A stretch of DNA of 62,057 nt from Acidobacterium sp. (lineage in GTDB: Bacteria > Acidobacteriota > Terriglobia > Terriglobales > Acidobacteriaceae): assembly GCA_027315385.1 (NCBI GenBank), contig DAHUYD010000067.1:1-62057 (forward strand). Direction: 5' to 3'. Under the pieces are notes generated by a model. It had not been told where the DNA came from and did no database searches. It worked only from the letters and a program-made list of their open reading frames with translations. Both the position numbers and the translations under genes were made by a program. Shown in pieces: positions 1,762-47,485 of this stretch (its first letter is position 1; the number at the start of each line of letters is the position of its first letter).

Positions 1762-1854
1762 TCATCGATTCGACGATCAGGAGGCCAGCGTCAGGAGCCG
1801 GCAATCATGACTGCCATGACGCAGATTTTTCTATCTCCTTTTACAGGTCTCGCA

Positions 1855-1860
1855 TATACT
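1855..1860 (+). promoter_or_regulatory. Candidate -10 element (TATACT) for the S53 protease gene
   Basis: TATACT lies 34 bases before ATG 1894 in an otherwise GC-rich region. No good -35 hexamer is seen at 17 bp. If real, transcription starts near 1867, which excludes the longest possible start at 1807 and supports 1885/1894. Confidence 0.35.
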
Positions 1861-1893
1861 GGCTCCCAATCCCAAATGCCAGGAATGCAACCC

Positions 1894-17218: not shown

Positions 17219-17614
17219 TCAGGCCGCGTTTTCCGCGGCGACTTCGAGAGCCTCGAGATCGAGACCCGGCGGCATCGCCATCGGTCGTTGCTGGAAGCTG
17301 TGAACCGCTTCCGCGACGGTTGGATAAACCTCAAAGAGACGCCGGAGCCCGGCGAGTTGCGGCGCGGTCCGGGTTTCCGCGGGCAGAGCTGCAAGCCGCA
17401 CGTCTCCGTTGCGCTTCATGGCCTCTTCCAGACAGGAAAACAGCAGATGCATGGTTGCCCTGCTCACGCGCCGTACGCGGGAGCAATCGAGCACGAGCCG
17501 AGGGCGTTCCGTTTCCACGTATTCCTGCAGGTTGCTCAAAAAGATGCGTTCTTCTGACGCAGTCACATCGTCGGGTACCTCATGCACTGTGACCGCACGC
17601 ATAGTAATCAACAT
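17219..17614 (-). CDS. STAS-domain protein (anti-sigma factor antagonist-like)
   Basis: A 131-residue single-domain protein. The STAS fold is seen as VTVHEVPDDVTASEERIFLSNLQEYV, then PRLVLDCSRVRRVSRATMHLL (the conserved 'P-x-x-v-l-D-c-S-x-v-x-x-v-s' with the Ser/Thr phosphorylation loop), then MKRNGDVRLAALP. Such proteins bind anti-sigma factors or act as small phospho-switches. ATG 17614 follows an AAGGG site; the upstream in-frame start at 17659 is less likely. It lies 112 bases downstream of flippase A, so it could couple a signalling switch to glycan export. Confidence 0.8.
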   Translation of the reverse strand: MLITMRAVTVHEVPDDVTASEERIFLSNLQEYVETERPRLVLDCSRVRRVSRATMHLLFSCLEEAMKRNGDVRLAALPAETRTAPQLAGLRRLFEVYPTVAEAVHSFQQRPMAMPPGLDLEALEVAAENAA

Positions 17615-17726: not shown

Positions 17727-19700
17727 TCACGAAATCTGGCCGGATCGTTCAAAGAGCCGGTCGAGCTCGGCCTCCGGATGGTAAGTAAGATGCCGAACAC
17801 GGTTCTTTCCGTAGCGGCTGAGTGTGACTAAATTTGTGCGGTACCAGCAGCAATGGTCCATGGCGGGAGACAACCCGCAGAGGACGCGCAGCCTGGGAAT
17901 GCAGCCTTCGAGCAGAGCGGCGGCGAGACGGTGGTTGCCGTCGATGATGGTCAGGGGGTCGTACTCGTTGCGGCCGATGAGGACAACGGATCCGGGAAGG
18001 GTTCCGGGCTGGGTCAGACGGTGGCGAAAGGCCTCAATCTTGCGCAGGAAGGGGTCCGTGGCGTGCTGGCCGAGTCGCCGGGCAAGCTTTTCCGCCACGT
18101 CGCTGAGGAGGAGATTGCCCTGGGCAATTTTGCGCCACTGCGCGCGCGGGAATACAAGAACGCGGCCCAGACCGGTTTCGCGAATTTGTACCTCGTACCA
18201 TTCCGTATTCGCAGGGATCTCTTTCCACAGGGCGAGGTGGCGGACGAAGAGCAGAGCGCGGCGTTTGGCGCACTCCGAGGGGCTCTCAAGGTTTGGCTTC
18301 TCCACGATGCTGCGCATCGATTCGTGGTAATCGAGATAGGCGTCGTGATCGAAATCGGAACGCAGGAACTCGGCGATGACCTCGTCCTCCGAAACACGGC
18401 GGATGACGCGGATGGCGGGCGATGCGGAGCGGCCCGAGGTCCGGGCCTCGCGAAACATGCTGATGAGGAATGGGATGCCGACGACGAGCAGGAGCAGGAC
18501 CATGAGCAGCAACTGCACGGCCAGGACTTCGCGCAGCGAGGAATGGAAGCGGCAGATGCCGCCAATGACGGCTGCGGCGAATGCGAGCTGCACCCAGGCG
18601 GTGTTGGCGATGCGGTAGGACATCTCGTACGCGATGATGGTGATGCTGAGCGAGAAAACCATGGTGACAACAGCTTTGAGCGAGAGCAGGTAGGGCATGC
18701 CGTAGGGTCCGGCGATGTGGAAGCCGGCACCGAAGAACGTCGTCCAGATCGAGGGGGGCGCTATACGGAGGCCGATCGCCATTGCCGAGCCGATGCCGAG
18801 CACAATCAGCAGGGAGGTGGCGATGAGGGAGAGATTCCTGCGCTCCTCGTGCGGCGCGCCGGCAACGACGGGGAACATGCCGTTCATGACAGCGGAGGAG
18901 AAGGAGAAGATGACGCGGCCGACAAGAGCGATGGCGGCGTAGAGGCCAGCGGTGGCGGGCGCAAAGAAGTGCTTCACGAGGACGATATCGCTGTTGTTGA
19001 TGAGGACCTGGCCGGAGAAGAACACCAGGGCCTGCAGTAGTTCGCGCGCGGCAAGCACGCCCCCGAGTGGGTTTGGGCCGGAAGCGGACAGGGCGGGAGG
19101 GATAACGGCCCAGGCGATGGCTTCGGCGGCGGCATTGGCGCCGATTACGCCGGTGACGCCGAAGCCGAGAAAGATCGCGACCAGCGAACCGATGAGACGG
19201 GCGGCGGCTTCCAGGACGAGATTGGAAGCGAGCTTGCGGAATCCGCAGGCGCCCAGGATATAGCCGCGCCGGCAGCCCAGAGGCACGTAGAAAGCGGCGC
19301 CCACGGCAAGGAGAACGACGAGGAGCGGACTGGGAAGGCGGAGGTAAACCGCGACAGAATTGCGAAAAATGACGAGCAGGAAGGCGACAAGGACACCGCA
19401 GCTCCAGGCGGCCCGATGGAGCAGCAGGTAGGCGGCGCCGCGGGTCTCGCCGGAGCCGGGCTGCGCGACCATCTTGGCGGAGACAATCTGAAAGGAGAGG
19501 GTGACGGCGGAGGCGATCGTGAGCATGGTGTACACGACCGCTACGTGACCGTAACCGCTGGCGCCGAGGAAACGGGCGACGGCGATGTTGTAGCCGAGAT
19601 TGACGATGGTGGTGAGGCTCGAGCCGGACAGCAGCACCGCGCTTCCGGAGATGATCCGGTTGCGCAGCTTTCTGGAATTCTGCATGGATGGATTCGACAC
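17727..19700 (-). CDS. Wzx-type polysaccharide flippase fused to a ParB/sulfiredoxin-like 'DGNHR' domain (paralogue A)
   Basis: Residues about 10-425 form a MATE/Wzx-type transporter with about 12 membrane helices, starting RIISGSAVLLSGSSLTTIVN and containing the family pattern ARFLGASGYGHVAVVYT. Such proteins flip lipid-linked glycans across the inner membrane. After the last helix comes a cytosolic domain of about 230 residues: DEVIAEFLRSDFDHDAYLDY, RRALLFVRHLALWKEIPANT, VLVFPRAQWRKIAQGNLL, then ITIIDGNHR-type sequence with DGNHRLAAALLEG at 587-599 and CCWYRT shortly after. DGNHR in a strand-turn-helix is the nucleotide-binding signature of the ParB/sulfiredoxin/SerK superfamily. A typical Wzx (about 420-500 residues) has no such tail. 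The homologue at 36240-38276 has the same architecture. Confidence 0.8.
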   Translation of the reverse strand: MSNPSMQNSRKLRNRIISGSAVLLSGSSLTTIVNLGYNIAVARFLGASGYGHVAVVYTMLTIASAVTLSFQIVSAKMVAQPGSGETRGAAYLLLHRAAWSCGVLVAFLLVIFRNSVAVYLRLPSPLLVVLLAVGAAFYVPLGCRRGYILGACGFRKLASNLVLEAAARLIGSLVAIFLGFGVTGVIGANAAAEAIAWAVIPPALSASGPNPLGGVLAARELLQALVFFSGQVLINNSDIVLVKHFFAPATAGLYAAIALVGRVIFSFSSAVMNGMFPVVAGAPHEERRNLSLIATSLLIVLGIGSAMAIGLRIAPPSIWTTFFGAGFHIAGPYGMPYLLSLKAVVTMVFSLSITIIAYEMSYRIANTAWVQLAFAAAVIGGICRFHSSLREVLAVQLLLMVLLLLVVGIPFLISMFREARTSGRSASPAIRVIRRVSEDEVIAEFLRSDFDHDAYLDYHESMRSIVEKPNLESPSECAKRRALLFVRHLALWKEIPANTEWYEVQIRETGLGRVLVFPRAQWRKIAQGNLLLSDVAEKLARRLGQHATDPFLRKIEAFRHRLTQPGTLPGSVVLIGRNEYDPLTIIDGNHRLAAALLEGCIPRLRVLCGLSPAMDHCCWYRTNLVTLSRYGKNRVRHLTYHPEAELDRLFERSGQIS

Positions 19701-19761: not shown

Positions 19762-19912
19762 AACCGCCGGAATTGGCTCAGAGACGCGGGACGAAATTAC
19801 AGGTCAGTGCCGCGGCTATGGTGAGTCGGATGCATGCTTTACGCGCATGGCTGCTTACCGGGCCCGCGCGGCGACAACCCGGGGGAAACGAGGCGCTTCT
19901 AACAGGATTCCT

Positions 19913-20893
19913 ATGGCTGGACGTGTGGGTGCTGCATCGCTGTTTCTTTTTTTCCTTCTCCATGGATGCCTGGGCTCGCCGCCGCCACCGCGGCTGCAGT
20001 TTACGGCCACAGGAGAATCTCCGGAGTTGCTGGCCCTGTACGAGGGCTGGTTTGGAGAGCCGAATCATTGGAACGCGGGATATTCGTCCCACGATCCGCA
20101 CACGATTCGCGATCAGATCCGAAGCGCGAAAAGGATGGGAATTTCCGCATTCGTGGTCGACTGGTACGGCGATCGCGACCCATTCGTGGACCAGACGTAC
20201 GCGCTCGTTGAGAAGCAGGCGGCGAAGAATAAGTTCCACGTGGCCGCGATGTATGACGAGTCGGATGCGACGGATGGGGCGACGGATGCGGCGATCGCGG
20301 ATCTGACGATGTTCCACGACAGCTACCTGGCCACAAAAGACGGACGCAACGCATACCTGACGTACGAGGGGCGGCCGGTGATCTTCGTCTGGCCGCACGG
20401 TGACGCGGTGGACTGGGACAAGGTGCGCGGCGCGGCTAACAAGTGGAATCCGGCGCCGTGGCTTATCGACGAGAATCTGCCAGGCAAGTACGCGAAGGAC
20501 TTCGATGGATATTATCCCTGGGTGCAACCGGGGCCCAAAGGCTGGGCGGCGGACGGCAGTGACTGGGGACAGGGATATCTGAGCAGCTTCTACCAGACGA
20601 TGGCGCAGAAATTTCCCGGCAAAATCATCGTGGGCGGAGCGTGGGCGCAGTTCAACGACAGCAAGGCTTCCTGGGGATTGAACCGGCATATCGCGGCGCG
20701 ATGCGGGCAGACGTTCCGGCAGACGCTGAATCTGTGGAAACAATATGTGCCTGCGGGGCAGGTGATCCCGTTCGTGATGGTGGAGACGTGGAACGACTGG
20801 GAAGAGGGCACGGCGATCGAGAAGGGATTGCCGACGTGCGGAGGGCAGCCCGCGCCCACTTCTGTGGTGAGTTTGGAGACCCCAGGGAAGTAG
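19913..20893 (+). CDS. Lipoprotein glycoside hydrolase, GH99/GH71-like (endo-alpha-mannanase clan)
   Basis: The 326-residue product starts at ATG 19913 (AGGA upstream). Its short signal ends in a lipobox LLHGC, so it should be lipid-anchored. The catalytic part has GH99-like features: LLALYEGWFGEPNHWNAGYS, then MGISAFVVDWYGD, FDGYYPWVQPG, and the C-terminal signature VETWNDWEEGTAIE. These enzymes cleave internal alpha-mannosidic or related linkages. Within an exopolysaccharide locus it could trim or release the polymer in the periplasm, as PelA, AlgL or PslG do in other systems. The linkage cannot be predicted. Confidence 0.8.
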   Translation: MAGRVGAASLFLFFLLHGCLGSPPPPRLQFTATGESPELLALYEGWFGEPNHWNAGYSSHDPHTIRDQIRSAKRMGISAFVVDWYGDRDPFVDQTYALVEKQAAKNKFHVAAMYDESDATDGATDAAIADLTMFHDSYLATKDGRNAYLTYEGRPVIFVWPHGDAVDWDKVRGAANKWNPAPWLIDENLPGKYAKDFDGYYPWVQPGPKGWAADGSDWGQGYLSSFYQTMAQKFPGKIIVGGAWAQFNDSKASWGLNRHIAARCGQTFRQTLNLWKQYVPAGQVIPFVMVETWNDWEEGTAIEKGLPTCGGQPAPTSVVSLETPGK

Positions 20894-21001: not shown

Positions 21002-21499
21002 CTATTTCGCGGCTGCCTGGAAGAAGCGGACCTGCCAGCGCGTCTGCGAGGGCGTGAGCACCGCAATGTAGCGCGCGTGGACCGGCTGCGTGGCGAGGAC
21101 GGTAGCACCCTGCATCACCTGCTCGTCGTAAACGACGTGATCGACGATCTGCAGGGACAAACCGTCCGGCGAGTAGAAGACAATCCGCAGACGATGCGAG
21201 CGGGCGGTGTAGCGGGTGTGGATTCCGAGCCTGCCTTGGTCGGCGATGGTGCCGTCGAGCCGTGTGAGCGCGGCGCCGACGAAGTCCTGGTTGAGCAACT
21301 GCGGCGCATTCTGATCGAATGCCGACCGGAAAGCTGCCCAGGACTGGAGATAATCGCGAACGACCGCCGACCCTGTGAGAGCCTCCAGAGGGCGCGAACC
21401 GTCGAGAGCGGGTGGCAGCACCTGCACCGTTGCATCCTGAGCGTGGACGGCCAGGGGAAGCGACAGCGCACAGGCGAGCAGCAAGAGACGGCGGATCAT
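21002..21499 (-). CDS. Secreted hypothetical protein, last gene of a four-gene overlapping operon
   Basis: A 165-residue product with a clean signal peptide (MIRRLLLLACALSLPLAVHAQ). The mature protein has a helical N-terminal half (AVVRDYLQSWAAFRSAFDQN) and a beta-rich end (RLRIVFYSPDGLSLQIVDHV, RWQVRFFQAAAK), resembling a small NTF2-like or SnoaL-like scaffold, though that is uncertain. Its ATG overlaps the previous stop (ATGA), with GGAGGGG 4 bases upstream. Family unrecognised. Confidence 0.75.
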   Translation of the reverse strand: MIRRLLLLACALSLPLAVHAQDATVQVLPPALDGSRPLEALTGSAVVRDYLQSWAAFRSAFDQNAPQLLNQDFVGAALTRLDGTIADQGRLGIHTRYTARSHRLRIVFYSPDGLSLQIVDHVVYDEQVMQGATVLATQPVHARYIAVLTPSQTRWQVRFFQAAAK

Positions 21500-22371
21500 T
21501 GGCCCCTCCAGTGAATCTCATTACCCGCGACCACGCCGCTGGCGACGGAGACGCTGGCGCCGGAGGGAAGAGGCAACTCCACCTCGGCGATGTCGCGCTT
21601 GAGCGGGACATCCACCGTGGATTGCATGCCGTTGAAGCTGGCGGTGAAGGTCACCACGGTGCCGTCGGGAATCGGATTGCCGCTACAGTCGCGGACGGGG
21701 GCCGTTTGCAGTTTTGCCTCGCCCCCCTTGTCGGGGACCGCGGTCATCGAGAGATTGCAGGGATCGCCCGGGACCTCGTCGATGACCCGCGTGCTGGCGA
21801 CACCGGCAACGCTGGCGACAAACCGCGCAGAGCCTTCTTTCGCGGCGGAGTTCATGCGCGTCCAGGCCACGCCATTGCGGGTGGTGACGGTGCGCGTCTG
21901 AGCCGGGCCGAGGGAGTCGGAGAGATTAAACGAAACCGGCATGGGACTGACGATCAGGTTGCGATAAATGTCGAAGACGTAGACGGTGCCGCTGATGCCG
22001 TTCTGCAGATCGACGGGCAAACGCGAGGGTTCGGCGAGAAAGCTGAGCCTTGCGGGCTGCTGCGCCGGGGTGACCTCGATCAGGCCGGCCTGCTCGTCGG
22101 AGCCATTCGCGAGGATCACGACATAATCGCCGGCGTTATACAGGACGCCGGCTGGGATCGAGACGGGCGATCCAAGCTGCACGCTGCGGCGCAGCGCCTG
22201 GCCGGGGCCGACGATGGTCAGCGTGCCCTGGCCGCTGCCGCCGGTGGAGATGGAAAATGCGCTGCCCGCGACCACCTGCTGCGGAAGGTGCATCGACGGG
22301 CGTTGCGCCAGGAGGAGCGGACACGCGACCAGAGCCGATGCCGCCAGCAGGAACCAGCGAGACAAGCTCAC
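21496..22371 (-). CDS. Secreted Ig-like protein of unknown function
   Basis: A 291-residue secreted protein (signal SLSRWFLLAASALVACPLLLAQ). The mature part is all-beta with invasin/Big_1-like traits: QPARLSFLAEPSRLPVDLQ, VYVFDIYRNLI and GTVVTFTASFNG ('D-x-x-g-N-p-v-p-d-G-T-x-V-x-F'), so it probably contains two or three Ig-like domains. Start is GTG 22371, overlapping the upstream stop as GTGA, with AAAGGAG 8 bases upstream. The overlap with both neighbours indicates tight co-expression with the PTPS-related membrane protein. Confidence 0.75.
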   Translation of the reverse strand: MSLSRWFLLAASALVACPLLLAQRPSMHLPQQVVAGSAFSISTGGSGQGTLTIVGPGQALRRSVQLGSPVSIPAGVLYNAGDYVVILANGSDEQAGLIEVTPAQQPARLSFLAEPSRLPVDLQNGISGTVYVFDIYRNLIVSPMPVSFNLSDSLGPAQTRTVTTRNGVAWTRMNSAAKEGSARFVASVAGVASTRVIDEVPGDPCNLSMTAVPDKGGEAKLQTAPVRDCSGNPIPDGTVVTFTASFNGMQSTVDVPLKRDIAEVELPLPSGASVSVASGVVAGNEIHWRGQ

Positions 22372-23501
22372 AGCGCTACTCCTTTAGGGCTGTAGGCGGC
22401 GACGATGGTTCGCTCGCTCCGGATCTTCTGTGCCAGATCCTCGGGAACGGGGACGGTAAAATTCACCGGGACCTGGGGCGCCAGGGCGCGGCCGATGAAT
22501 CGTCCTGAAACCCAGATAACGTTGCCGTTGGCGTCATAGAAAGTAGTGAGAACATGCGTGAAGTTGACGATCTGTCCGCTCTGGTCGGAGAGCTGCCCGG
22601 AGAGCGAAGCGGTGGGAAGGGCACTGTATTTCTGGTTGAGAATTGCGATCACGGGATCCGCGGAGGCGGAGATCAGGATCGATTCCGGATGCATACGGAT
22701 GCTGGCGACCTGGGATAAATCGACATCCGGGAAGTGAATTCGGAACGGCGTCACCTGTTTGGGTAGAAGCCGGTGCGAAATCATCTCGAAGCTGTCCTCG
22801 CTTCCCAGGATCCTGCCGTCCTTGCCGACGAGCGTAGCGCGCACGTCCACCCAGGCCGGTACAACGTCGTCATTGAGCAGTTCGCCGAGAACGTAGACGC
22901 CTTCGGCCCGGTTCACGGGGCGCATGTCGACGATGCGCACGTTGGGGCCAGCGACGTTCTGCGAGCCCCATTCGTCCCTGGCGCCGCTGTAGATCACGTC
23001 CCAGCGGAGATAGTTGACGGGAATCACCTGAGGCGGGACGGACGGACGCGTGACCAGGGGCCAGTCCACCTGCCAGTTGTTGCCGTTACGGACCACATGT
23101 ATGTTGCGGGTTTCATTGTAGGGACCGAGAACCGTGCTCCAGTGAAACGTGACGCGCACGTCGGCTTGATCGGCGGACTCATGGAGCGGCTGGGCGCTGA
23201 CCGTTTCAAGAGTGGCCTGTGTCCGAAGGCTGGTGTAGAAGCCGTCGATGTCCTCGTCGAAGGCCAGCTGAGTGAATTCCGCTTTGTTAGCGAGACTTTT
23301 GTATGCCGCCGGAAGCTGATGCTGGCGGATGCGAATGCCGAGATTCTGGATGGCGATCTCCGGCGTGGAGGGAGAACGCAGTATGTTGCCGTTGCCGCTG
23401 CCGGCGAAATAGACGGCGGACGGAATGGGCCAGATGGTGCCCACGGCGATCAGAATGACCGTAGCGGCGGCCACAGCAATCGCGAGAAAGGTTCCCTTCA
23501 T
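22368..23501 (-). CDS. Membrane-anchored periplasmic protein of unknown function
   Basis: A 377-residue protein with one N-terminal helix (about 4-30: FLAIAVAAATVILIAVGTIW). It has an NTF2-like region (about 60-150: LPAAYKSLANKAEFTQLAFD, then DVRVTFHWSTVLGPY and VRNGNNWQVDWP, reminiscent of MecA_N-type domains). The second half has a two-copy beta pattern (VYVLGELLNDDVVPAWVDVR; VNFTHVLTTFYDANGNVIW) like FxLYD-type domains. Its ATG overlaps the upstream gene's stop (TAATG-type). The product probably faces the periplasm beside the polytopic protein. Confidence 0.72.
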   Translation of the reverse strand: MKGTFLAIAVAAATVILIAVGTIWPIPSAVYFAGSGNGNILRSPSTPEIAIQNLGIRIRQHQLPAAYKSLANKAEFTQLAFDEDIDGFYTSLRTQATLETVSAQPLHESADQADVRVTFHWSTVLGPYNETRNIHVVRNGNNWQVDWPLVTRPSVPPQVIPVNYLRWDVIYSGARDEWGSQNVAGPNVRIVDMRPVNRAEGVYVLGELLNDDVVPAWVDVRATLVGKDGRILGSEDSFEMISHRLLPKQVTPFRIHFPDVDLSQVASIRMHPESILISASADPVIAILNQKYSALPTASLSGQLSDQSGQIVNFTHVLTTFYDANGNVIWVSGRFIGRALAPQVPVNFTVPVPEDLAQKIRSERTIVAAYSPKGVAL

Positions 23502-25255
23502 TACGAAGCCAGCCTTTCGTGCACAAGTGGTTCATCTGTCGCTCCGGTGTCCTCTCCGGTGCGGACCAGGCGCCGTTTGTCCGGAATAAGGAAGAGCAGG
23601 AGGGCGAGAATGCTGTTGCCGACGGGCAGGATTCCCCACATCATGTCCTGCCAGTGCGTGGGCTCGACGCCAAAGACCATGGGGTGAGCGGGCGGGACAC
23701 CTTCCTTGCTCCAGACCTGGACCGCGCCGTAATCGATCTGATCGACCAGGCGCCAACCTGCAAAATGAAGAGCCGGGTCGTACCAGGGGTCGTGGACGAA
23801 GATCCACTTGAGTCCATATCGATCGGCGTGGCGGAGCATGGCCTGAAGCGCCTCCATACCGCCGGGATGAAAATACTTCGAGTTGTCAAGGGAGCCGCCA
23901 CCGAATTTCATGAGTTCGGGGAGGCGGCGATCGCTGTACCACTCGCCGTCGACGCTCTCGGCGTCGGTTTCCACGCCGAGCCGGGAGATATTGTTGCCGA
24001 AGCCGAGGGTGAAGTAACGGTAGTTGTCATGGCCGCCGCGATTGAGCCATTGGGCGACGGGGCCGACCCGCAGGTTGATGCTGTTGGTGGGCTGGTAATT
24101 GGCCCAGGCAATGGGCAGGCCGCAGGTAATGGCGCCAAGCACCGCCAGGGGAACGACGGCCTTCATACGGAAGCGAGCGACGAGTTCCGACATGAGCAGA
24201 CCGAGGATGGGCAGGGAGAGGATTTCGGCGTAGTAGGTGAAGCGCTCGAACGTGAGGACATAAAAGGCGCGGCGAAAGAGCCAGAGAGCGACGGGGGTCG
24301 TTCCGCCCAGACCGACCAGAAAGCAGACCCAGAACCCCAGCATGAGCGGGAGGAGCCGGCGATTGTGAGCGCCGCGCCAGATGATGAAGGGCAGGGCGAG
24401 CATAAGGGCTCCCCAGGGAACGATGAAGTAGTTCATTCCCCAGAAGGGTGTGAGCAGGAAGTTGGCGCGGCTGGCATGGGGAATGGGCGCCTGAGTGACG
24501 GGGTAGCGGAATAGTGCGATCCAGTAGGGCAGAATGACGACGGCGATGGCGACGGCGGTCGCGATGGCTATGGCGACGGCGCGCGCGATGACGGCGCCGC
24601 TGGTGGTCTTCTCGTCGCCCTCGTTGCGCTCCATGATGGCGAGCGCTATGAGGGGAAAGGTGAAGAAGGCCGTTCCGAAGATGACGATGACGTCATGCGC
24701 CGAACCGGCGGCTGCGAAGAGAACCACGGCTTTGATCAACGGCCGCCATCCGCCGTAACGGAGCCATTCATACAGGAACGGCAGAGCCAGGACGTACAGC
24801 GCGGCCTCCCAGGTGGTGGCGAGCTGGCCGGCGTTGTAGACCAGAAAGCTCTCAGAGCCGAGGAGCACGACAGCCAGGGAGGCGTAAGAAGCGGCGCGCT
24901 CGTTGACCCAGATTCCCGCATAGCGGTACATGCCCACGGCGAGCAGGGCGATGGCCACGAACTGCACCAGCATGTAACCGTACTGGAGTCCGAATATGTG
25001 CCCGAGGAGAGCGGTCCACTGCTGCGGGAGGGGCGGGTACGTGGTCTGGGAGAATCCGGTGAACCACTTGACGTTCCAGGGATTCCACCAATGGTGCATG
25101 TAATGCGCCGCGAAAAAAATCTGCTGGTTGGTGTCGTAGGACTTGAGCGGCAGCTTCATAAGAAGCAGCGGAGCGTGGACCAGTACCGCAATGAGAACGA
25201 TGAAGCTGAGCGGTATCGGCTGCGAAGATAAGTTTGGTGGAGCGGTTCTTTCCAA
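23501..25255 (-). CDS. Polytopic membrane protein, PTPS-related/GT-C-like
   Basis: A 584-residue protein with about ten predicted membrane helices. The first loop carries SYDTNQQIFFAAHYMHHWWN and then WFTGFSQTTYPPLPQQ, matching the '6-pyruvoyl-tetrahydropterin-synthase related' membrane family (PF10131), whose GT-C-like layout suggests glycosyl transfer from lipid-linked sugars. The C-terminal region (about 400-540) is a soluble domain with NYRYFTLGFGNNISRLGVET, followed by a final helix and a charged tail. It heads a four-gene operon with overlapping ends, divergent from the TPR/barrel gene. A polymerase role is an inference. Confidence 0.75.
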   Translation of the reverse strand: MERTAPPNLSSQPIPLSFIVLIAVLVHAPLLLMKLPLKSYDTNQQIFFAAHYMHHWWNPWNVKWFTGFSQTTYPPLPQQWTALLGHIFGLQYGYMLVQFVAIALLAVGMYRYAGIWVNERAASYASLAVVLLGSESFLVYNAGQLATTWEAALYVLALPFLYEWLRYGGWRPLIKAVVLFAAAGSAHDVIVIFGTAFFTFPLIALAIMERNEGDEKTTSGAVIARAVAIAIATAVAIAVVILPYWIALFRYPVTQAPIPHASRANFLLTPFWGMNYFIVPWGALMLALPFIIWRGAHNRRLLPLMLGFWVCFLVGLGGTTPVALWLFRRAFYVLTFERFTYYAEILSLPILGLLMSELVARFRMKAVVPLAVLGAITCGLPIAWANYQPTNSINLRVGPVAQWLNRGGHDNYRYFTLGFGNNISRLGVETDAESVDGEWYSDRRLPELMKFGGGSLDNSKYFHPGGMEALQAMLRHADRYGLKWIFVHDPWYDPALHFAGWRLVDQIDYGAVQVWSKEGVPPAHPMVFGVEPTHWQDMMWGILPVGNSILALLLFLIPDKRRLVRTGEDTGATDEPLVHERLAS

Positions 25256-25415
25256 GGTTCCTCACGTAGAAAACGAGTTTGATTCCGAAAGTACCGGCGG
25301 CGGTTGCTTTTTACGTGGCCGTGCCGCGGCGGTTTCCTAACATGAACGCCGATCAGCAGCCAACGCCAGAGGGATTCTCCGAATCCAAAGCCAGGTAGTT
25401 GCGACCCGCACGTTG

Positions 25416-28400
25416 GTGACCTGTTTGACATCAAGACGAAAGTGCCTCACATTCGCAGGCGCAGTTGCGCTGCTTGTTCTCACCTGCCCTGCGCATCCAC
25501 AGACCTACCAGGTCGGCGCCGGCGGCCGGGTGAAATCGAAAACGGCGAACGGCCAGACGCAGACGCAACTGGGCTGGGGATCGAATATCCAGAACGCGCG
25601 GCTGGCGCGCGCGGCAGAACTCGCGCTGCAGCGCGGCGACTATCCGACCGCGGAAAACTATGCGCAGCGCGCCGCGCGGTCGGCTCCGGACGATCCGCAG
25701 CTCTGGTTTCTGCTGGGCTACGTGGCGCGGCTGAACCACAATTACGCGCTGTCGGCGACGGCCTTCCAGCACGGACTGCGACTCAAGCCATTGTCCGTGC
25801 AGGGAATCTCCGGCCTGGCGCAGACGTACAGCGACATGGGTCGGGTGGCCGAGGCCGAGAAGCTGTTGAAGCAGGCGCTCGCCGTGAATCCGCGGCAGGT
25901 CGACGATCTGCTCGTTCTTGGGAATCTCTCTTTGCAGGCCGGCGATTATCCAGATGCAGTTACGTACCTGAGGCGCGCAGAGCAGGTAAAGCCGAATGCG
26001 AGGTCGGAGTTGCTGCTGGCGATCTGCTACGAGCGCCAGAAGGAGATGGACATGGCCAGCCGCTACCTCCACCTGGCGCAGAGGCGTGCGCCGAACAATC
26101 CGGACGTAGAGCGGTCGCTGGCGGGCTACTACCGGGAGACGGGCCATTACGGGAAGGCGATTGACGAGCTGAAGGCGATTCGCAACCCGCCGCCGGACGT
26201 GGTAGGCGAGCTGGCGTACACGTATCAACTGGACGGCAAGCCGCAGGATGCCGCGCGTTTATACTCGCGGGCAGCCGATGCGCTGCCGCGCAATCTGGGT
26301 ATGCAGCTATCGGCGGCGCAGGCGGAACTCACGGCGCAGGCGCCGGACCGCTCGCATCGGTTTCTGGCGCGGGCTGCCGGAATCAATCCCAACTACTACC
26401 GGCTGCACCAGATCCGCGGGGAGATTGCGGAGCTGGAAGAGCACAATGATGCGGCGGTGAAGGAATACCAGGCGGCGATTGCCAGCCTTCCACCAACCCC
26501 GGCGGAGGGGCCTCTGTATGGCATTCAGCTGCACATGGATCTACAGATGCTGTACCGCCAGCTGAACCAGGACAATGCGGCACAGCAGCAGTTGCAGATT
26601 GCGCAACAGCAGATCAAAAGCGTTCAGGTGCAGCCTGGCGAGCGGCCCGCGTTCCTGCGGCTGCGTGCGCAGATTGAAATGAATACGGGCCAGCTGCAGT
26701 CGGCACTGAATGACATGCAGGCGGCGCTGGCGCTGACGCCGAACGACCCCAACAGCCTGCAGATCGATGGCGACGTGCTGATGAAGATGGGCCGGACGCA
26801 GGATGCCATTGCCGTCTACAGGAAAGTGCTGGGGATTGATCCGCGTAGCCGCCTGGCCCTTACGTCGCTGGGTTACGCCGCGCGCACCGAGCATAACGAC
26901 CGCGAGGCGGAGAAGTACTTCAACCGTCTGGCCGCCGATTATCCAGGCCTTTACATTCCCTACCTCGCGCTGGGCGATCTGTATGCGGACCGCGGGCTTT
27001 ACAAGAAGGCAGAATTGTATTATGACAAGGCCTACACTCGGGACCCGAAGAACGCGCTGATTGTGGCCGACGCGATGAATGCGGCCATCGAAGAGCATAA
27101 TTTGCCGCTGGCGGCCACCTGGCTGAACCGCGTACTGCCGGGAATGTACAACAGTCCGCAGATTCTGGCGCAGAAGGAACGGTATTTCCGGTTCCAGGGG
27201 AACTATCGCGAGTCGGCGGAAAATGGTGAGAAGGCGATACAGTCGCTCCCGCGGGATCGCGATGTCGTGGTGTATCTCGGGTATGACCTGCTGAACCTGG
27301 GCAAATACGACGAACTGCTGGCCCTGACGAAAAAATACGACAGCATCCTGACGCAGGAGCCGGACATTCCGCTGCTGGAAGGGTACGTCTACAAGGAAAA
27401 GGGCGATCGGAAACGGGCGGTGCAGGCGTTCACGGAGGCAATCCAGCGCGGCCCGGCGGTGGAGACGGCGTACGTCAACCGCGGGTTCGTGGAAAACGAT
27501 CTGCGCGAGCCGGCGTCGGCACAAAAGGATTTCACCAGGGCGATTCATCTGGAGCCGAAGGATGGGCAGGCGCACCTGGGGCTGGCCTACTCCGACTTGG
27601 CGCTGAGCGATTCGCCCGGGGCGCTGAAACAGTCGAAGCTGGCGCAGGCGTATCTGGGGGATTCGGAGGCGGTGCACATTATTCGGGCCACGGCCTACGG
27701 GCGCGAAGGATTGCTGTCAAACGCGATTGTGGAGTATCGGGCGGCGCTGCGGTTTGCGCCCCGTGACGGCACGCTGTACGCGGAGATGGGCAACATCTAC
27801 TTTTCGCAGCGGCGGTTCCACCACGCGATTGCCGAGCTGAACACGGCAGAGAAGTACCTGCCGAACAACGCGCAGATCTACGCGATGCTGGCCCGGTCGT
27901 ACGCCGGAGTGCCGGATCGGCGGCAGGCGATGGCGAATGTGGAGTCGGCCGAGAAGCTGGCGGACCACCCGCCCAGCGAGGGCGCGACGTGGGTTCCAAG
28001 CGACATTTATGTGGACACCGGCGAGGCGCTCAGCGCGCTGGGAGACCGTAAGGCGGCTATGCAGCGATTTGCGCGGGCGCTGGTGGCGCCCAGGGCGAAT
28101 CGCGTGGGCGTGCGCCTGGCCATTGCGCAGCTGATGGCACAGCAGGGGAATGACGCGGGAGCGGAGCGGCAGATCGCGCTGGCGCAGATGGAAGGGGAAG
28201 CCGGTGTGACCGAGCCGCCGACCGGTCCGCAGTATCTGCAGGCGGCGGGCATTCTGCAGCAGATGCATGAGTATCGGCTCTCGCAGACCTATCTGGAGCG
28301 CGCGCTGAAGGCGGGGGCGTCGGATCTGGATGTGCGCGTGGATCTGGCCAACAGCTACCTGGCGCTGGGAGAGACGCAGCGCGCCGCCGGAGAACTGGCG

Positions 28401-29678
28401 GCGGTGAGCCAGGCGGACGTGGCGAAGTCGGATTACTCGTATCTGCTGGCCCAGGCCAATGTGTATCAGCAGGAGCACCAGGGGACGGCGGCCCTGTCTG
28501 AGTTTGCGCAGGCGGCCAGCGCGGCCGGGGAAGACCAGACCGCCGAACAGAATCTGATGCAGGTGGGAGCGAATGAGGGGTACCGCATCGACAAACATAT
28601 CAGCGTTCTTTCCAACCTGCTGCAGCAGCCGATTTATGAAGACAGCACGGTGTACGTACTGGATTCAGAGACGTTCGGAAATCCTCCGGCGATTTACGGG
28701 AGCACAGTCGCGACGTCAAAACTGCCGCTGCCGCGCTACACGATCGATACGGAGTGGACAGACGCATTCCATCTGCATCTGAACCACTGGCCGACAACGG
28801 GCGGTTTCTTCCAGCTCCGCAATGCGCGTGGCATGATCTCGATGCCGGCGATCGGCATAGTGAGGCGCAGCACCTGGGACTACAACTTCAATTATGGCGT
28901 GGCCCCCAATTTCCATCTGGGAGCCACGATGCTCTCGTTCAACGCAGGGTTTATGGGAACGATTCGCCGGGACACGATTTCGCCGCGGGAGATGGACCAG
29001 AACATCGGGCGATTCTTCGCCTACATGAGTACCGGGTCGTTCTGGGACGCGGTGTCGGTGAACGCCTCGGTCGTGCACGATTTCGGGCCGTTTACGGAGA
29101 TTCCGCTGCACGAGTCGACGCTGGCGGGCACCGTGGATTTTCGCGTGGGCGCGCCGTGGGCGAAGACGGCTCTGGTCACGGGCTGGGGCTCGAATGACCA
29201 GCTTTTCACCTCAGGTTCGCTCGGGAACACGGAAAACTATTTCACCACGTCCTACATCGGACTTACGCATCGGTTTTCCTCGCATCTGAATATCGAGGGG
29301 ATCGCGGAAGACTGGCGCGCATGGCGCGTGGTGCCTTTCGTGGTCACCCCGGGGAGCTTTATCGTGCACTCCGGCATTGCCCAGGCGATACGACCCGCCG
29401 GAACCGTCAACTACTCGCCGGCGCGGAACTGGCAGATTCAGTTCTCGACCGCTTACGAAAATACCCGCAGTTTTCACGTATACGACATGACTCAAAACGG
29501 ATTCTCCCTCTCATACACGCGGCCCCTCGGGCGCAGCATGAACGAAGAATTGGGGACGGTTCATGTACGGTATCCGATTCGGTTTTCGGCCGGCGTGCAG
29601 GAAGAGACGTTTCCGAACTACACCGGGATCGGCAGGAACCAGGAATTTCGACCTTACGTAAGCATCAACCTGTTCTGA
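25416..29678 (+). CDS. Large TPR protein with C-terminal outer-membrane beta-barrel (PelB/BcsC-like export protein)
   Basis: About 1420 residues. A signal-like N-terminus (FAGAVALLVLTCPAHPQ) is followed by about 25 tetratricopeptide units (roughly 55-1050; for example ARLARAAELALQRGDYPTAE, LKQALAVNPRQVDDLLVLGN, IAVYRKVLGIDPRSRLALT). A linker leads to a beta-barrel (about 1065-1420) of alternating strands ending in EFRPYVSINLF, with the terminal Phe recognised by the Bam machinery. PelB, BcsC, PgaA and AlgK/E use the same plan to conduct polysaccharide through the periplasm and outer membrane. The start is GTG 25416 or TTG 25413; no strong ribosome binding site was seen. A GT4 gene follows after 9 bases. 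Confidence 0.83.
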   Translation: MTCLTSRRKCLTFAGAVALLVLTCPAHPQTYQVGAGGRVKSKTANGQTQTQLGWGSNIQNARLARAAELALQRGDYPTAENYAQRAARSAPDDPQLWFLLGYVARLNHNYALSATAFQHGLRLKPLSVQGISGLAQTYSDMGRVAEAEKLLKQALAVNPRQVDDLLVLGNLSLQAGDYPDAVTYLRRAEQVKPNARSELLLAICYERQKEMDMASRYLHLAQRRAPNNPDVERSLAGYYRETGHYGKAIDELKAIRNPPPDVVGELAYTYQLDGKPQDAARLYSRAADALPRNLGMQLSAAQAELTAQAPDRSHRFLARAAGINPNYYRLHQIRGEIAELEEHNDAAVKEYQAAIASLPPTPAEGPLYGIQLHMDLQMLYRQLNQDNAAQQQLQIAQQQIKSVQVQPGERPAFLRLRAQIEMNTGQLQSALNDMQAALALTPNDPNSLQIDGDVLMKMGRTQDAIAVYRKVLGIDPRSRLALTSLGYAARTEHNDREAEKYFNRLAADYPGLYIPYLALGDLYADRGLYKKAELYYDKAYTRDPKNALIVADAMNAAIEEHNLPLAATWLNRVLPGMYNSPQILAQKERYFRFQGNYRESAENGEKAIQSLPRDRDVVVYLGYDLLNLGKYDELLALTKKYDSILTQEPDIPLLEGYVYKEKGDRKRAVQAFTEAIQRGPAVETAYVNRGFVENDLREPASAQKDFTRAIHLEPKDGQAHLGLAYSDLALSDSPGALKQSKLAQAYLGDSEAVHIIRATAYGREGLLSNAIVEYRAALRFAPRDGTLYAEMGNIYFSQRRFHHAIAELNTAEKYLPNNAQIYAMLARSYAGVPDRRQAMANVESAEKLADHPPSEGATWVPSDIYVDTGEALSALGDRKAAMQRFARALVAPRANRVGVRLAIAQLMAQQGNDAGAERQIALAQMEGEAGVTEPPTGPQYLQAAGILQQMHEYRLSQTYLERALKAGASDLDVRVDLANSYLALGETQRAAGELAAVSQADVAKSDYSYLLAQANVYQQEHQGTAALSEFAQAASAAGEDQTAEQNLMQVGANEGYRIDKHISVLSNLLQQPIYEDSTVYVLDSETFGNPPAIYGSTVATSKLPLPRYTIDTEWTDAFHLHLNHWPTTGGFFQLRNARGMISMPAIGIVRRSTWDYNFNYGVAPNFHLGATMLSFNAGFMGTIRRDTISPREMDQNIGRFFAYMSTGSFWDAVSVNASVVHDFGPFTEIPLHESTLAGTVDFRVGAPWAKTALVTGWGSNDQLFTSGSLGNTENYFTTSYIGLTHRFSSHLNIEGIAEDWRAWRVVPFVVTPGSFIVHSGIAQAIRPAGTVNYSPARNWQIQFSTAYENTRSFHVYDMTQNGFSLSYTRPLGRSMNEELGTVHVRYPIRFSAGVQEETFPNYTGIGRNQEFRPYVSINLF

Positions 29679-29687: not shown

Positions 29688-31094
29688 ATGAAGATTTGTC
29701 TAGTGGCGGCGTTTCCACCGAGCCGGCGACAGCTGAACGAGTATTCCCTGAACATTGCGCGAGAGATCCAGAGGTATCCGGATGTCGAACTGACTATCCT
29801 GGCCGACGAACTGGGGAAGTATGACTTCACGGGTGAAGCGGGCGGGAAGGGCGAACCGGCCCGGGAGTTGCCGGATTTTAACGTCATCCGCTGCTGGAGG
29901 TTCGGCAGCATGGCGACGCCTGCGCGTCTGCTGGGCACCATCCGCCGGCTACAGCCCGACGTGGTGTGGTTCAACCTGGTCTTCTCCAGCTTCGCGGGGC
30001 CGGAGAGCCCCTTCGCTGCTTTCGCCGGCTTGTCCGCGCCCGCGCTCACTCGAGCGGCGGGGTTCTACACGCACATCACGCTGCACCACATCATCGAGCA
30101 CGTGGACTTTGGCGACGCGGGTGTAAAGCGCGAGAAGCTGTATCGTCTGGGAACGAATGTGGCCACGCGCGCGCTGCTGCAGGCGCACTCGGTCTCCGTG
30201 CTGCTCTCAGCGTACCGGCGTACGCTGATCAAGAAATATTCCGCTGAGAACGTGATGGTGGGCACACATGGCACGTTTGCAACGGTTTGCACGCCGCCCG
30301 ATTTCAGGATCCGGAACAATCCGGATCGCCGCATCCTCGCCTTCGGCCACTGGGGGACGTACAAGCGGCTGGAAACGCTGATGGAGGCGTTTCCTCTGGT
30401 GCTGAAGCGAGTACCCGAAGCGCGCCTGATTGTGGCTGGCGGCAACCACCACACGCGCCCCGGTTATTGGGAATCGGTGCGCGTCGCGCAGCCCGAACAT
30501 CTGCCTATCGAATTTCTGGGCTATGTGCACGACAACGACGTCCCGCAGATGTTCCGCACCAGTTCGATTCTTGTGATGCCCTACGATTCTTCGACGGGAT
30601 CGAGCGGGCCGGCGCATCAGGCGTGCGAATTCGGCCTGCCGATTGTGTGCGCCGACATTCCCGATTTTCACTGCATGGCCAAGGACGACGACATGGCCAT
30701 CAGTTTTTACAAGACCGGGAATGCCGAGGATTTGGCGGATAAGCTGGTTGGCATTCTTCAGTCGCCGGAGCTTGAGCGGCAGATGTCGCAGCACAACTAT
30801 CAGGCCGGCATTCAGATGACGATGGCGAGCGTGGTGCGCAATTATCTGCGCTGGTTCGAACTGCACCGCTGCAAGCGCGAAATCGCAGACAAGAGCCTCT
30901 GGTCTGGGGGCCGGCGGTTGCCCGGCGGGCTATCGGAGCGGGAATCCGCTTCGCTGGTTCAGATGGACGAGACAAACTCCCGTGTGGCGCCGGAGCTGAT
31001 GGAAGGCGCTCTGCGGCCCGAGGCAGAATCGATGCCGCTGCTGGGATCGCGCGCAAGTCTTTCCAACAACGATGAATACGCTGACGCAAGTTAG
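29688..31094 (+). CDS. Glycosyltransferase family 4 (GT-B fold)
   Basis: The 468-residue protein begins MKICLVAAFPPSRRQLNEYS, the GT-B N-terminal donor-site start. The C-terminal Rossmann domain has RRILAFGHWGTYKRLETLME (the GT4 'f-G-r-l-x-x-x-K-x-x-x-x-l' region), IEFLGYVHDNDVPQMFRTS, and SSGPAHQACEFGLPIVCAD, equivalent to the E-x7-E motif region that binds the NDP-sugar, here with one Glu clearly visible. A charged tail of about 60 residues (from SLWSGGRR) is beyond the fold. Placed 9 bases after the TPR/barrel gene, as in pelB-pelF type pairs, it is a candidate for chain synthesis in the cytoplasm. Confidence 0.85.
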   Translation: MKICLVAAFPPSRRQLNEYSLNIAREIQRYPDVELTILADELGKYDFTGEAGGKGEPARELPDFNVIRCWRFGSMATPARLLGTIRRLQPDVVWFNLVFSSFAGPESPFAAFAGLSAPALTRAAGFYTHITLHHIIEHVDFGDAGVKREKLYRLGTNVATRALLQAHSVSVLLSAYRRTLIKKYSAENVMVGTHGTFATVCTPPDFRIRNNPDRRILAFGHWGTYKRLETLMEAFPLVLKRVPEARLIVAGGNHHTRPGYWESVRVAQPEHLPIEFLGYVHDNDVPQMFRTSSILVMPYDSSTGSSGPAHQACEFGLPIVCADIPDFHCMAKDDDMAISFYKTGNAEDLADKLVGILQSPELERQMSQHNYQAGIQMTMASVVRNYLRWFELHRCKREIADKSLWSGGRRLPGGLSERESASLVQMDETNSRVAPELMEGALRPEAESMPLLGSRASLSNNDEYADAS

Positions 31095-31194
31095 CGGCCA
31101 ATTCTCTCGGGACAACTCGCCTTCCGAGGCAGTCGTCCAATACCGGCACGTAGTCTGCCCGGATCCATCCGTGGCTGCTGGAAGGAAGCTTACA

Positions 31195-36239: not shown

Positions 36240-38276
36240 TCAGCGGAGCCTTGACGACAACTCAGGTATCCAGTCCTGGACGGCGGTGGCGCCATGGCCA
36301 GTGCACAGGCCGGTGGCGGCATCGAGACGGCAACAGGTCAGCTCGGCTTCCGGATCGTAGATGGAATGCCGAACCAGATTGAGCGCGTAGCGAGCCAGCG
36401 ATGCCGCGCTGGTGCGATGCCAGCAGCACCGGCCCATGCTCGGGGAGGTGCCGCACAGGAAGCGCAGGCGATCGAGGCGGCCGGCCAGCGCGGCCGCAAT
36501 CAGGCGGTGATTGCCGTCAATCACCGTGAGGGGTCCCGCACCCGTGCCGCCGATCATCAGGACGGCGGCGGCGGGAAGATCGCCGCGCTGCAGCGACCTG
36601 CTCATGGAGGCGATCTTGGATGCGAAAGGATCGTCCGGGTGTTTTTCTATGCGCTCGATCATGCGCGCGGCAATCTCAGGGACAGCGGAGCTGTCGGCGC
36701 CGAGCCTGCGCCACTGAGCGCGCGGAAAGACACGAATGCGGGCCAGGTCTGCCTCGCCAGGCGCGACTTCGTACCACTGCGTGTCTTCCGGCAATTCCCT
36801 CCAGAGGGCGAGATGGCGGAGGAACAACAGGGCGCGGCGCTGCGCGTTCTCAGCGGGACTGGCGAGATCCGGGGCCATGACCATGGAGCGCATGGTTCTC
36901 CGGTGGCCGCCATACGCAATGTGATCGAAATCGGACTTGAGGAACTCGACGATCGCTTCCGCTTCCGACGAGCGCCGAATCACGGGCAGGGACGGGGCGC
37001 GGCCGGTGTCCGTGGCCTCGGAAGAGCGCAGGGCGTCTCGGAGAATGGGTGCTCCGGCTACCAGGAGCAGAGCGATCATGAGCACCAGTTGCACGAGAAT
37101 CACCTGCTCCAGCGAGGAATGGTAGCGGCAGATGCCGGCGATGACGGCGGCGCTGAAGGCAAGCTGGATCCAGCCGGTGTTGGCGATTTTGTAGGACATC
37201 TCGTAGGTGATGATGACGACGCTGAGCGAATAGATGACGCAGGCGACGCCTTTGAGGGCGAGGAAGAATGACAAGCCGTGCTGGCCGGGCATGCGGAAGC
37301 CCGCGCCGAAGAAAACCGTCCAGACGTGAGGGGGAATCATCAGAAGGACGACCGTCATGATGGCGCCTGAACCGAAGACCAGCAGGAGCGCTGTCGCGAT
37401 CAGCGTAAGGCTCTTGCGGTCTTCGTGGCGCGCCCCGGCGGAGATGGGAAACATGCTGTTGACGATGGCCGAGGAGAACGTGTAGATGACACGCCCGATG
37501 AGAGCCACGGCCGCGTACAGTCCGGCCATCACCGGCACAAAGTAGTGCTTCACGAGAACCATGTCGGAGTTGTTGATCAGCATCTGACCGGAAAAGAACA
37601 CCAGAGCCTGAGACATTTCTTGGAAGACGCGCCGGAGAGGGAGCGCACCAGGCACGATGCTGGCGCGCTCAGGGGCGATGGTCGCCCACGCAACGATTGA
37701 CGCCGCCGCGTTGGCGGCGATCACTCCGGTGACGCCAGTGCCCAGCAGGACCATGATCGCGGATCCGCCGAGACGCACGGCGGCTTCGAGCACGAGATTG
37801 GCAGCCAGTCGGCGGAAGCCGTATAACCCCTGCGCGAACCCTCGGCGGGTTCCCAGCGGAATGTAGAATCCGGCCCCAATGGCAATGAGGAAGATCAGGA
37901 AAGGGCTGGAGAGATGGAGATAGCCGGCAACCTGCCGCTGGAAGAGGACGAGCGTGACCGCGACGACAGCGCCGCAGACAGAGGCCTGTCGATGCATCTG
38001 GATATAGGCGGCGCTTCGGGCAGCAGGCGATTCCTGCTGTGCGGTGACCTTGGCCGTGAGCAGCTGGAAGGAAAGCGTGAGCGTGGAAACCAGCGTCAAA
38101 ATGGTGTAAACCGCGACTGCCTGGCCGTAGTTCCCGGGCCCAAGGAAATGGGCGATGACGACGTTGTAGGCGAAGCTGCAGAGAGTCGCGAATGTCGACC
38201 CGGAAAGCAGAACGGCACAGCCGGCCATGAGGCGGGATGTCAGACTGGCCGGCTGCTGAGGGGAAGGTATCGACAC
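36240..38276 (-). CDS. Wzx-type polysaccharide flippase fused to a ParB/sulfiredoxin-like 'DGNHR' domain (paralogue B)
   Basis: A 678-residue homologue of the protein at 17727-19700. The transporter part starts RLMAGCAVLLSGSTFATLCS and contains AHFLGPGNYGQAVAVYT, with about 12 helices. The cytosolic domain repeats the motif order of paralogue A: EAEAIVEFLKSDFDH, RRALLFLRHLALWRELPEDT, RVFPRAQWRRLG, DGNHRLIAAALAG at 587-599, and CCWHRT. GTG 38276 is chosen because GGAG lies about 9 bases upstream and the protein then aligns from its first residues with paralogue A (MSIPSP versus MSNPSM), placing DGNHR at residue 587 in both. The ORF can be extended to 38345. The last 30 residues (CCRLDAATGLCTGHG...) differ from A and are Cys-rich. 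Confidence 0.8.
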   Translation of the reverse strand: MSIPSPQQPASLTSRLMAGCAVLLSGSTFATLCSFAYNVVIAHFLGPGNYGQAVAVYTILTLVSTLTLSFQLLTAKVTAQQESPAARSAAYIQMHRQASVCGAVVAVTLVLFQRQVAGYLHLSSPFLIFLIAIGAGFYIPLGTRRGFAQGLYGFRRLAANLVLEAAVRLGGSAIMVLLGTGVTGVIAANAAASIVAWATIAPERASIVPGALPLRRVFQEMSQALVFFSGQMLINNSDMVLVKHYFVPVMAGLYAAVALIGRVIYTFSSAIVNSMFPISAGARHEDRKSLTLIATALLLVFGSGAIMTVVLLMIPPHVWTVFFGAGFRMPGQHGLSFFLALKGVACVIYSLSVVIITYEMSYKIANTGWIQLAFSAAVIAGICRYHSSLEQVILVQLVLMIALLLVAGAPILRDALRSSEATDTGRAPSLPVIRRSSEAEAIVEFLKSDFDHIAYGGHRRTMRSMVMAPDLASPAENAQRRALLFLRHLALWRELPEDTQWYEVAPGEADLARIRVFPRAQWRRLGADSSAVPEIAARMIERIEKHPDDPFASKIASMSRSLQRGDLPAAAVLMIGGTGAGPLTVIDGNHRLIAAALAGRLDRLRFLCGTSPSMGRCCWHRTSAASLARYALNLVRHSIYDPEAELTCCRLDAATGLCTGHGATAVQDWIPELSSRLR

Positions 38277-38468: not shown

Positions 38469-39458
38469 TTATGCCGCGCGCCCCTTGAGAGCCAGTGCCG
38501 GTTCTCGTTCCATAATCCGATCGGGGGTTCCCGCCATGATGCCTTCGTTCGCGTAGTGCACCTTGTTGATGATCGACAACGGCCGGCTGCGCACTTCGTC
38601 GTACACTCGCCCGAGATACTCGCCGATGATGCCCAGACAGAGCAATAGCATGGCTCCCACGGCGAAAACGGCGGCGGAGATTCCCAGACCGATACTGGCA
38701 GCGGAACCGCCGGCGAAGAGCGCGAAAAGGCCGAGCACGATCACTGCGGCCATGGAGACGCTCGACAGCGCGAAGCAGAAGCGCAGCGGCTTGAAGCTGA
38801 AGCTGGTGATGGCGTCCATCGCATATTTAATACGGCTGATGAACGAGAGCTTGCCGTCGCCGGCGAGGCGGTCCTGACGGTCGTAATAGACGATGGCGTT
38901 TCTGTAGCCGACCCACGCGCGCAGACCGGGGAGATAGCGATTGCCCTCTCGCAGGCCGTTGATGGAGTCGAGCGCCTGCCGGTCCAGCAGGCCAAAGATG
39001 CCCGCGTCGAGGGGAATCGGATAATCCGAGATCGCGGAGAGCACGCGGTAAAAAATGGGAAACAGCAGGGCGAGGAGCTTGCGGCCTTCCTGGCGGCTCC
39101 TTCTGACCGCGACGACCACCTGAGCGCCACCGCGCCACGCGGCGATGAGTTCCGGCAGCACTGCGGGCGGGTCCTGGAAGTCGCCGTCCATGACGATCAC
39201 GCCCTCGCCGCGCGCTGTTCTCAGGCCGGCGGAAATCGCGCCCATGTGTCCCCAGTTGCGCGAGAGATCGACGACCACTATGTGAGGATCCTGCCTCTGC
39301 AGGTCCTTCATCAGTTCGAGAGAACTGTCTCTGGAGCCGTCATTGACATAGACGACTTCCCACTCCTCGCCAATGTCTCGCATGGCGACGGCCACGGCCG
39401 CGTGAAACGTGGAGATGAGTTCTTCCTCGTTGTAAATCGGTACTACAACCGAAATCAT
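38469..39458 (-). CDS. Membrane glycosyltransferase family 2 (GtrB/bactoprenol glucosyltransferase-like)
   Basis: The 329-residue protein begins MISVVVPIYNEEELISTFH. VYVNDGSRDSSLELM and IVMDGDFQDPP (metal-binding D-x-D) mark the GT-A domain (1-225). Two C-terminal membrane helices follow (about 235-260 and 268-295), then LGRVYDEVRSRPLSIINK, typical of GtrB/DPMS-like enzymes that charge polyprenyl phosphate with a sugar. ATG 39458 has GGAG about 8 bases upstream; the GTG at 39548 would add 30 unrelated residues. It precedes flippase B on the same strand with a 192-base gap. Confidence 0.88.
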   Translation of the reverse strand: MISVVVPIYNEEELISTFHAAVAVAMRDIGEEWEVVYVNDGSRDSSLELMKDLQRQDPHIVVVDLSRNWGHMGAISAGLRTARGEGVIVMDGDFQDPPAVLPELIAAWRGGAQVVVAVRRSRQEGRKLLALLFPIFYRVLSAISDYPIPLDAGIFGLLDRQALDSINGLREGNRYLPGLRAWVGYRNAIVYYDRQDRLAGDGKLSFISRIKYAMDAITSFSFKPLRFCFALSSVSMAAVIVLGLFALFAGGSAASIGLGISAAVFAVGAMLLLCLGIIGEYLGRVYDEVRSRPLSIINKVHYANEGIMAGTPDRIMEREPALALKGRAA

Positions 39459-39663
39459 GTTGGCGCTCCGGAGGTATGGAAAAGGGATGGCCCTGCTCAA
39501 CGAGCATTCATCGCATTGCAACAAGTTTGGATGCCGAAAATCGGCCACCCGTGGAGGAATATCTGCGAATAAACCGTCCCCCCGATGACGAGGCTGCGCT
39601 GGCAGCCTTGATCGAGCCGGATTTCCGGCGCGTTATGCGATGATGACGCCCCGGTTTGCGGCG

Positions 39664-47350: not shown

Positions 47351-47438
47351 TTCAGGTCCTCTGGATTGTACTTCGGAAGAACTCAGGAACCTGCGGCCCT
47401 CAGACCGGCCCTCCCCGGCGCAAGCCGATCCCGGACAG

Positions 47439-47464
47439 CAAAAAGCCCGGATCGCTCCGGGCTT
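47439..47464 (-). terminator. Rho-independent terminator after trxA
   Basis: On the minus strand a 9-bp stem (AAGCCCGGA / TCCGGGCTT) with a 4-base loop is followed by TTTTT in GGCTTTTTGCTG. It lies just beyond the thioredoxin stop and ahead of the MutS-like gene. Confidence 0.75.
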
Positions 47465-47485
47465 CTGCTTCAAGTTCCATGCCGC

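Follow-up and report, generated by a model that had tools for sequence, protein, structure and literature searches.

Flippases of the MOP superfamily are powered by ion gradients or lipid turnover, and are not known to carry nucleotide-binding domains. The free serine kinases SerK and SbnI are soluble proteins, and sulfiredoxin (Srx) holds its catalytic cysteine within a GGCHR loop. For the ParB fold, the sections cited here of a 2025 survey of ParB-fold fusions (PMC12704722) describe frequent fusion to other domains and a GxxR motif whose arginine is needed for NTP binding; when members of the fold were purified, 11 of the 28 bound NTP and 17 bound none. In the main text of that survey the words "flippase" and "polysaccharide" occur 0 times each, and among titles and abstract openings in the literature we found no report of a flippase fused to a ParB-like fold. 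The locus described below joins two parts of known kinds, and it is the pairing of flippase and tail that appears to be new.

The window, that is, the whole 62,057-nt stretch of an Acidobacterium sp. contig that was analysed, carries this fusion twice. Copy A (17727..19700, minus strand) starts with GTG at 19700 and encodes a 657-aa product, in which BLASTP, AlphaFold2 (AF2) modelling and matches to the MOP fold (Z 31) distinguish a MOP flippase (residues 1–422) and a ParB/Srx-like tail (residues 433–657). Copy B (36240..38276, minus strand) is a paralogous flippase-tail fusion of 678 aa, read from a GTG at 38276. A longer frame of 701 aa, from an ATG at 38345, is an alternative; GTG 38276 was taken as the start since it aligns with the start of copy A. 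BLASTP showed that the two copies are full-length paralogues, with 350 of 647 residues (54%) identical from end to end and two single-residue gaps that cancel each other. The tail domains lie on the minus strand at 17730..18404 in copy A, as defined by the alignment of tails, the AF2 model and fold matches, and at 36243..36980 in copy B, as defined by the alignment of tails. The preliminary description of this DNA had noticed the fusion in two copies with DGNHR at residue 587 of each. Both observations were borne out, and the shared residue number follows from the homology of the copies over their full length, not from a separate coincidence. The copies also sit in different gene groups, in agreement with the earlier statement that they belong to different operons; that they serve two substrates, or two stages of export, as was suggested there, would be a speculative reading. 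As for the Cys-rich C-terminus pointed out for copy B, such an end is real in this genome, but a single Cys is common to the three B orthologues in the alignment, and we rejected the Cys-rich end as a functional mark.

The AF2 model of the whole copy A (pLDDT 83.3, pTM 0.64) matched MOP-superfamily structures throughout residues 1–422, and the list of matches was filled by MATE, WzxE and MurJ proteins. High scores were obtained with MATE 6gwh (Z 31.9), with WzxE 9g9n (Z 31.7, rmsd 3.4, 392 residues aligned) and with MurJ 6nc6 (Z 25.5), and Foldseek agreed on matches of the MOP type. At the level of sequence families, copy B was recognised by PF01943 (Polysacc_synt) with 33.9 bits vs. a cut-off of 28.2, no Pfam match was obtained for copy A at E 0.01, and neither full copy had an NCBIfam match. 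By inspection, the copy A model contains about 12 membrane helices, whereas a simple hydropathy count gives fewer membrane segments. With about 12 helices, both ends of the protein would be placed in the cytosol, and the model thus makes a location of the tail on the cytosolic side likely. Both copies are probably inner-membrane MOP (Wzx-like) flippases that move lipid-linked glycan outward. As the MOP fold alone fits a glycan flippase and a drug exporter equally, the glycan reading is based on PF01943 together with the neighbouring glycosyltransferases.

Searches with the tail were negative both in Pfam, at E 10, and in NCBIfam. PF02195 (ParB_N) did not match any of five tails at E 10, and when 31 genomes were scanned with it at E 1 its matches included no tail; on sequence grounds, we rejected this family for the tails tested. 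An hhalign comparison of the tail with 25 ParB sequences, taken from 30 loci of which five were dropped for an empty translation, was not significant (E 0.3), and its weak alignment sets DGNHR on the GERR stretch. A sequence-profile search of solved structures with the tail gave nothing relevant, and no Pfam match to the helix-turn-helix DNA-binding domain of ParB proper was obtained in either copy.

Modelled alone by AF2 from 37 sequences, the tail reached a pLDDT of 92.9 and a pTM of 0.88. In Foldseek searches with this model no single match was significant, either in the PDB (best E 1.4) or in BFVD (best E 0.1). Of the first 25 VIA rows, 23 were titled Srx, ParB/Spo0J, KorB, SbnI or free serine kinase, with Z of 2.8–5.2, where any Z below 8 may reflect merely a shared common arrangement; the remaining two (1vk1 and 2hwj) we take to be ParB-like. 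The best score was that of Srx 6ky4 (Z 5.2, rmsd 2.9, 86 residues aligned), and matches were also obtained with ParB 7bnr (Z 4.5), SbnI 5ujd and SerK 5x0b (Z 3.9 for both). Among the BFVD matches listed, 18 of 50 rows were named ParB or ParB/Sulfiredoxin. Since one superfamily dominates the fold matches and the tail has an invariant loop of the GxxR form, we call the tail ParB/Srx-like and place it outside PF02195; judging from the model, it is likely a divergent domain of this fold.

The loop in question, GNHR (residues 588–591 of copy A), was present at all 120 tail places, 80 of which had been retrieved by patterns for GNHR or FPR..W, and also in all 37 tails retrieved by whole-tail similarity. 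In the tail model it occupies a turn from strand to helix, and its sequence pattern, GxxR, is that of Box II, the phosphate-binding motif of the ParB fold. An acidic residue (D or E) precedes it in all 120 tails, and E62, W69 and C186 are invariant in the 37-row tail alignment. A sulfiredoxin proper was rejected as the identity of the tail, the loop being GNHR in every one of the 120 places. Three distant soluble homologues, one of them from the same phylum (genome G279) and two from Streptomycetaceae plasmids, retain the G and R of the loop as well. A distant soluble homologue on a Kitasatospora plasmid (L155:6004-6585, plus strand), is annotated as a hypothetical protein and lies near sigma factor and zf-HC2 genes. 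A search of phages with a distant homologue gave one weak match, in a Fusobacterium phage (E 3e-3).

Results of searches in other genomes showed how regularly the two parts occur together. Relatives and the window together supplied 37 copies, of which 28 are fusions, 7 are systems encoded as two genes and 2 are tails alone. When extended to 120 places (these 37 copies, 80 named loci, which are the best 80 of 145 relatives, and three more, with several genomes occurring twice), the counts are 111 fused, 7 split and 2 tail alone, all 80 named loci being fused. In each of the seven split systems the stop codon of the flippase gene and the start codon of the tail gene overlap as ATGA, and shortly 5′ of the tail start there is GGAGG in six and GGGGGG in one (L062). 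The 120 places contain 100 distinct tails, 95 of which passed the length filter for the tree. In this 95-row tree the split rows form one clade (SH-aLRT 100), which under midpoint rooting is nested among fused rows, suggesting that the split form arose by fission from a fused ancestor, as far as a midpoint root can indicate. The lone tails (L054:9560-10582 and L057:9486-10463, both plus strand) have an N-terminal hydrophobic segment of their own and lie, by inspection, beside an aroA-like gene. Their genomes contain a fused copy too, and such extra tails with no adjoining flippase in two genomes indicate that the tail can act apart from the flippase.

When the flippase half was used as the query in 61 genomes, 26 places in 23 genomes were found at E 1e-20 or better. 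By comparison of coordinates, a tail is fused to or next to the flippase at all 26. In G035 the two share a contig; the tail there is fragmentary, at contig edges, and was left out of the 37-row alignment. Tails were present in 33 of 100 genomes including the window's own, all of them within the window's family, and in 0 of the 40 genomes outside it. In a phylum-wide sample 8 of 396 genomes, again including the own one, were positive, one of these by a distant standalone homologue. A fusion on a contig labelled Rhodanobacteraceae (L085) falls inside the acidobacterial rows of the tree, so this contig is likely misbinned. The recurrence of the fusion across relatives led us to reject chance fusion or assembly error. 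The preliminary description had already set chance aside, and we agree, as the tail is intact in every relative examined and an ATGA-coupled split form exists. Frameshifted tails in most orthologues, which would have spoken against that description, were not seen: the domain carries no frameshift or truncation at any of the 120 tail places.

Pairwise NG86 dN/dS values between orthologues were 0.12–0.17 for the transporter, 0.13–0.23 for the tail and 0.23–0.74 for the linker; with pairwise dS of 0.6–1.3, these ratios are approximate. For copy A vs. the more distant G009 the respective values were 0.31, 0.21 and 0.56. The tail, with values near those of the transporter, is thus under purifying selection, in line with the selection claimed earlier, and relaxed selection on it was rejected. 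The conserved blocks named at the outset (SDFDH, RRALLF-RHLALW, FPRAQWR, IDGNHRL and CCW(Y/H)RT) were found in both copies, and the poor conservation of linkers is reflected in the fast evolution of the linker between orthologues.

The earlier proposal to check whether the duplication predates the genus received a negative answer. Orthologues of copy B were found in G003 and G006, and B groups with A and the genus member G009 (SH-aLRT 91, not starred), while seven other tail-bearing members of the genus have one copy each; the trees did not support a duplication older than the genus. From these sequence comparisons, the A/B duplication is most likely young and internal to the genus. The stem of B is 0.52 long vs. 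0.24 for A, and copy B most likely changed faster early on. An exclusive six-row clade of A and B that leaves out G009 was disfavoured (p-AU 0.027), so copy B probably predates the split from G009 and is missing or unassembled there.

The surroundings of the system were examined by counting neighbour families in 36 loci. Just 3′ of copy A lies a gene for a STAS-domain protein (17222..17614, minus strand; PF01740, 1e-10), of a family found in 14 of the 36 loci. It is accompanied on the same strand by genes for a short protein with two hydrophobic segments (16725..17177; 15/36 loci) and for a thymidylate-kinase-like P-loop protein (15924..16688; PF02223 with 42.2 bits, cut-off 27; 25/36 loci). 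Further on, we observed a GH99/71-like protein (19847..20893, plus strand; PF16317 at 3.4e-07, below cut-off; 17/36 loci), an Ig-like (Big_1-like) protein that has a hydrophobic segment at its N-terminus (21496..22371, minus strand; weak Pfam match below cut-off; 17/36 loci) and an NTF2-like protein (22368..23501, minus strand; weak PF05223 match below cut-off; 19/36 loci). A polytopic membrane protein (23501..25255, minus strand; 26/36 loci) has at least eight hydrophobic segments and no Pfam or NCBIfam match; it may be a GT-C glycosyltransferase or a polymerase. The most frequent neighbour, in 30 of 36 loci, is a 1421-aa TPR protein (25413..29678, plus strand; TPR Pfam), whose NCBIfam matches, all below cut-off, include PrsT, PgaA and BcsC, and which is possibly an outer-membrane or periplasmic part of an exporter. 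Two glycosyltransferases complete the set, one of group 1 (29688..31094, plus strand; PF13692, 1.3e-17; 13/36 loci) and one of family 2 directly 5′ of copy B (38469..39548, minus strand; PF00535, 1.5e-29; 15/36 loci).

Taken together, these neighbours resemble a cassette for assembling and exporting a glycan. Two further PF01943 proteins are encoded in the genome (C2 and C48), with open frames of 436 and 465 aa that have no room for a tail, and the one on C2 sits near a Wzy_C protein; the cassette is thus distinct from the ordinary Wzx/Wzy pair. Other genes seen in the window encode a large phosphoesterase of the phospholipase C/acid phosphatase type, located between copies A and B (31072-33675, plus strand; PF04185, 6e-53), a MutS-like, possibly membrane-bound protein in which domain V, a weak domain III and two hydrophobic segments were recognised (45569-47473, minus strand), and a kumamolisin-type protease prodomain with Ig-like repeats (1807-5841, plus strand).

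The explanation that we consider best, and hold with moderate confidence, is that of a flippase of the Wzx type whose activity is gated by its ParB/Srx-like tail, acting as a nucleotide-binding domain on the cytosolic side. The sequence comparisons establish the fusion and its conservation, the coupled split form, the strict pairing and purifying selection on the tail; the fold and the cytosolic side are likely, and we infer that the tail takes up a nucleotide, that it gates flipping and that a glycan is the substrate. In this mechanism a nucleotide would dock at the invariant GNHR (GxxR) loop of the tail, and its binding or hydrolysis would toggle the flippase on or off, by which glycan export would be tied to nucleotide supply or precursor load. 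This explanation is weakened by the 17 of 28 fold members that bound no NTP and by the lack of a significant fold match for the tail. In its more specific form, which we put forward tentatively, a covalently attached ParB-fold nucleotide switch, perhaps one using CTP, gates the flippase and couples exopolysaccharide export to nucleotide supply, which would make the flippase the first membrane transporter with a switch of this kind.

The tail could instead be an enzyme of the SerK/SbnI type, which would add phosphate to the glycan or to the lipid that carries it, or modify either in another way, at the cytosolic face shortly ahead of flipping. SerK (described in PMC5120207) and SbnI are indeed among the fold matches of the tail, and a gene for a kinase-like P-loop protein is a frequent neighbour. 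The invariant E62, W69 and C186 and the D/E preceding GNHR could be catalytic residues. Yet, the Z scores are low, and the catalytic Glu of SerK, near residue 30, has no residue-level placement in the tail (E30 mutants are named in PDB titles of free serine kinase entries). We regard an enzymatic tail as rather unlikely.

A further alternative is a tail that has lost nucleotide binding and acts as a scaffold, docking the STAS protein, a glycosyltransferase and the P-loop protein onto the flippase. It agrees with the absence of NTP binding in 17 of 28 tested fold members, as given in the cited sections (PMC12704722), with the STAS gene that often adjoins the system, and with the ATGA-coupled split form, suggestive of a need for flippase and tail proteins to meet. 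It is not obvious why a pure scaffold should keep its GNHR loop unchanged in all 120 tails, and we consider this role unlikely. That the tail is a separate alpha/beta domain outside the ParB/Srx superfamily, with the GNHR loop in another role, would fit the lack of significant sequence and fold scores but is very improbable, as searches of two structure libraries both point to ParB/Srx, and the loop, invariant and of the GxxR type, sits where a strand turns into a helix in the model.

A conserved ParB-like domain on a flippase, whether fused or translationally coupled, would extend nucleotide switching by this fold from DNA segregation to membrane transport. Glycan export in soil Acidobacteria may then be under the control of a nucleotide switch, and the system, if it works in this way, would give a direct handle on how these bacteria control it.

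Compared with described systems, the copies share with Wzx/MurJ flippases such as WzxE (9g9n) the fold, the length, about 12 membrane helices and the nearby glycosyltransferase genes, but they add a domain, likely cytosolic, of about 220 aa. The SerK/SbnI free serine kinases are among the weak structural matches of the tail. With the ParB-CTPase fold fusion proteins, as they are presented in the cited sections of the survey (PMC12704722), the system has in common the GxxR motif, a weak fold similarity and fusion to a partner domain; it differs from them in that the tail is unmatched by PF02195, the domain named in the fusion analysis there. Noc, whose membrane binding is switched by CTP, shows that a switch of the ParB fold can work at the membrane; according to the cited part of that work (PMC8429893), it binds DNA, plus the membrane via an amphipathic helix, whereas the tail is joined covalently to a transporter, and searches detected no DNA-binding domain.
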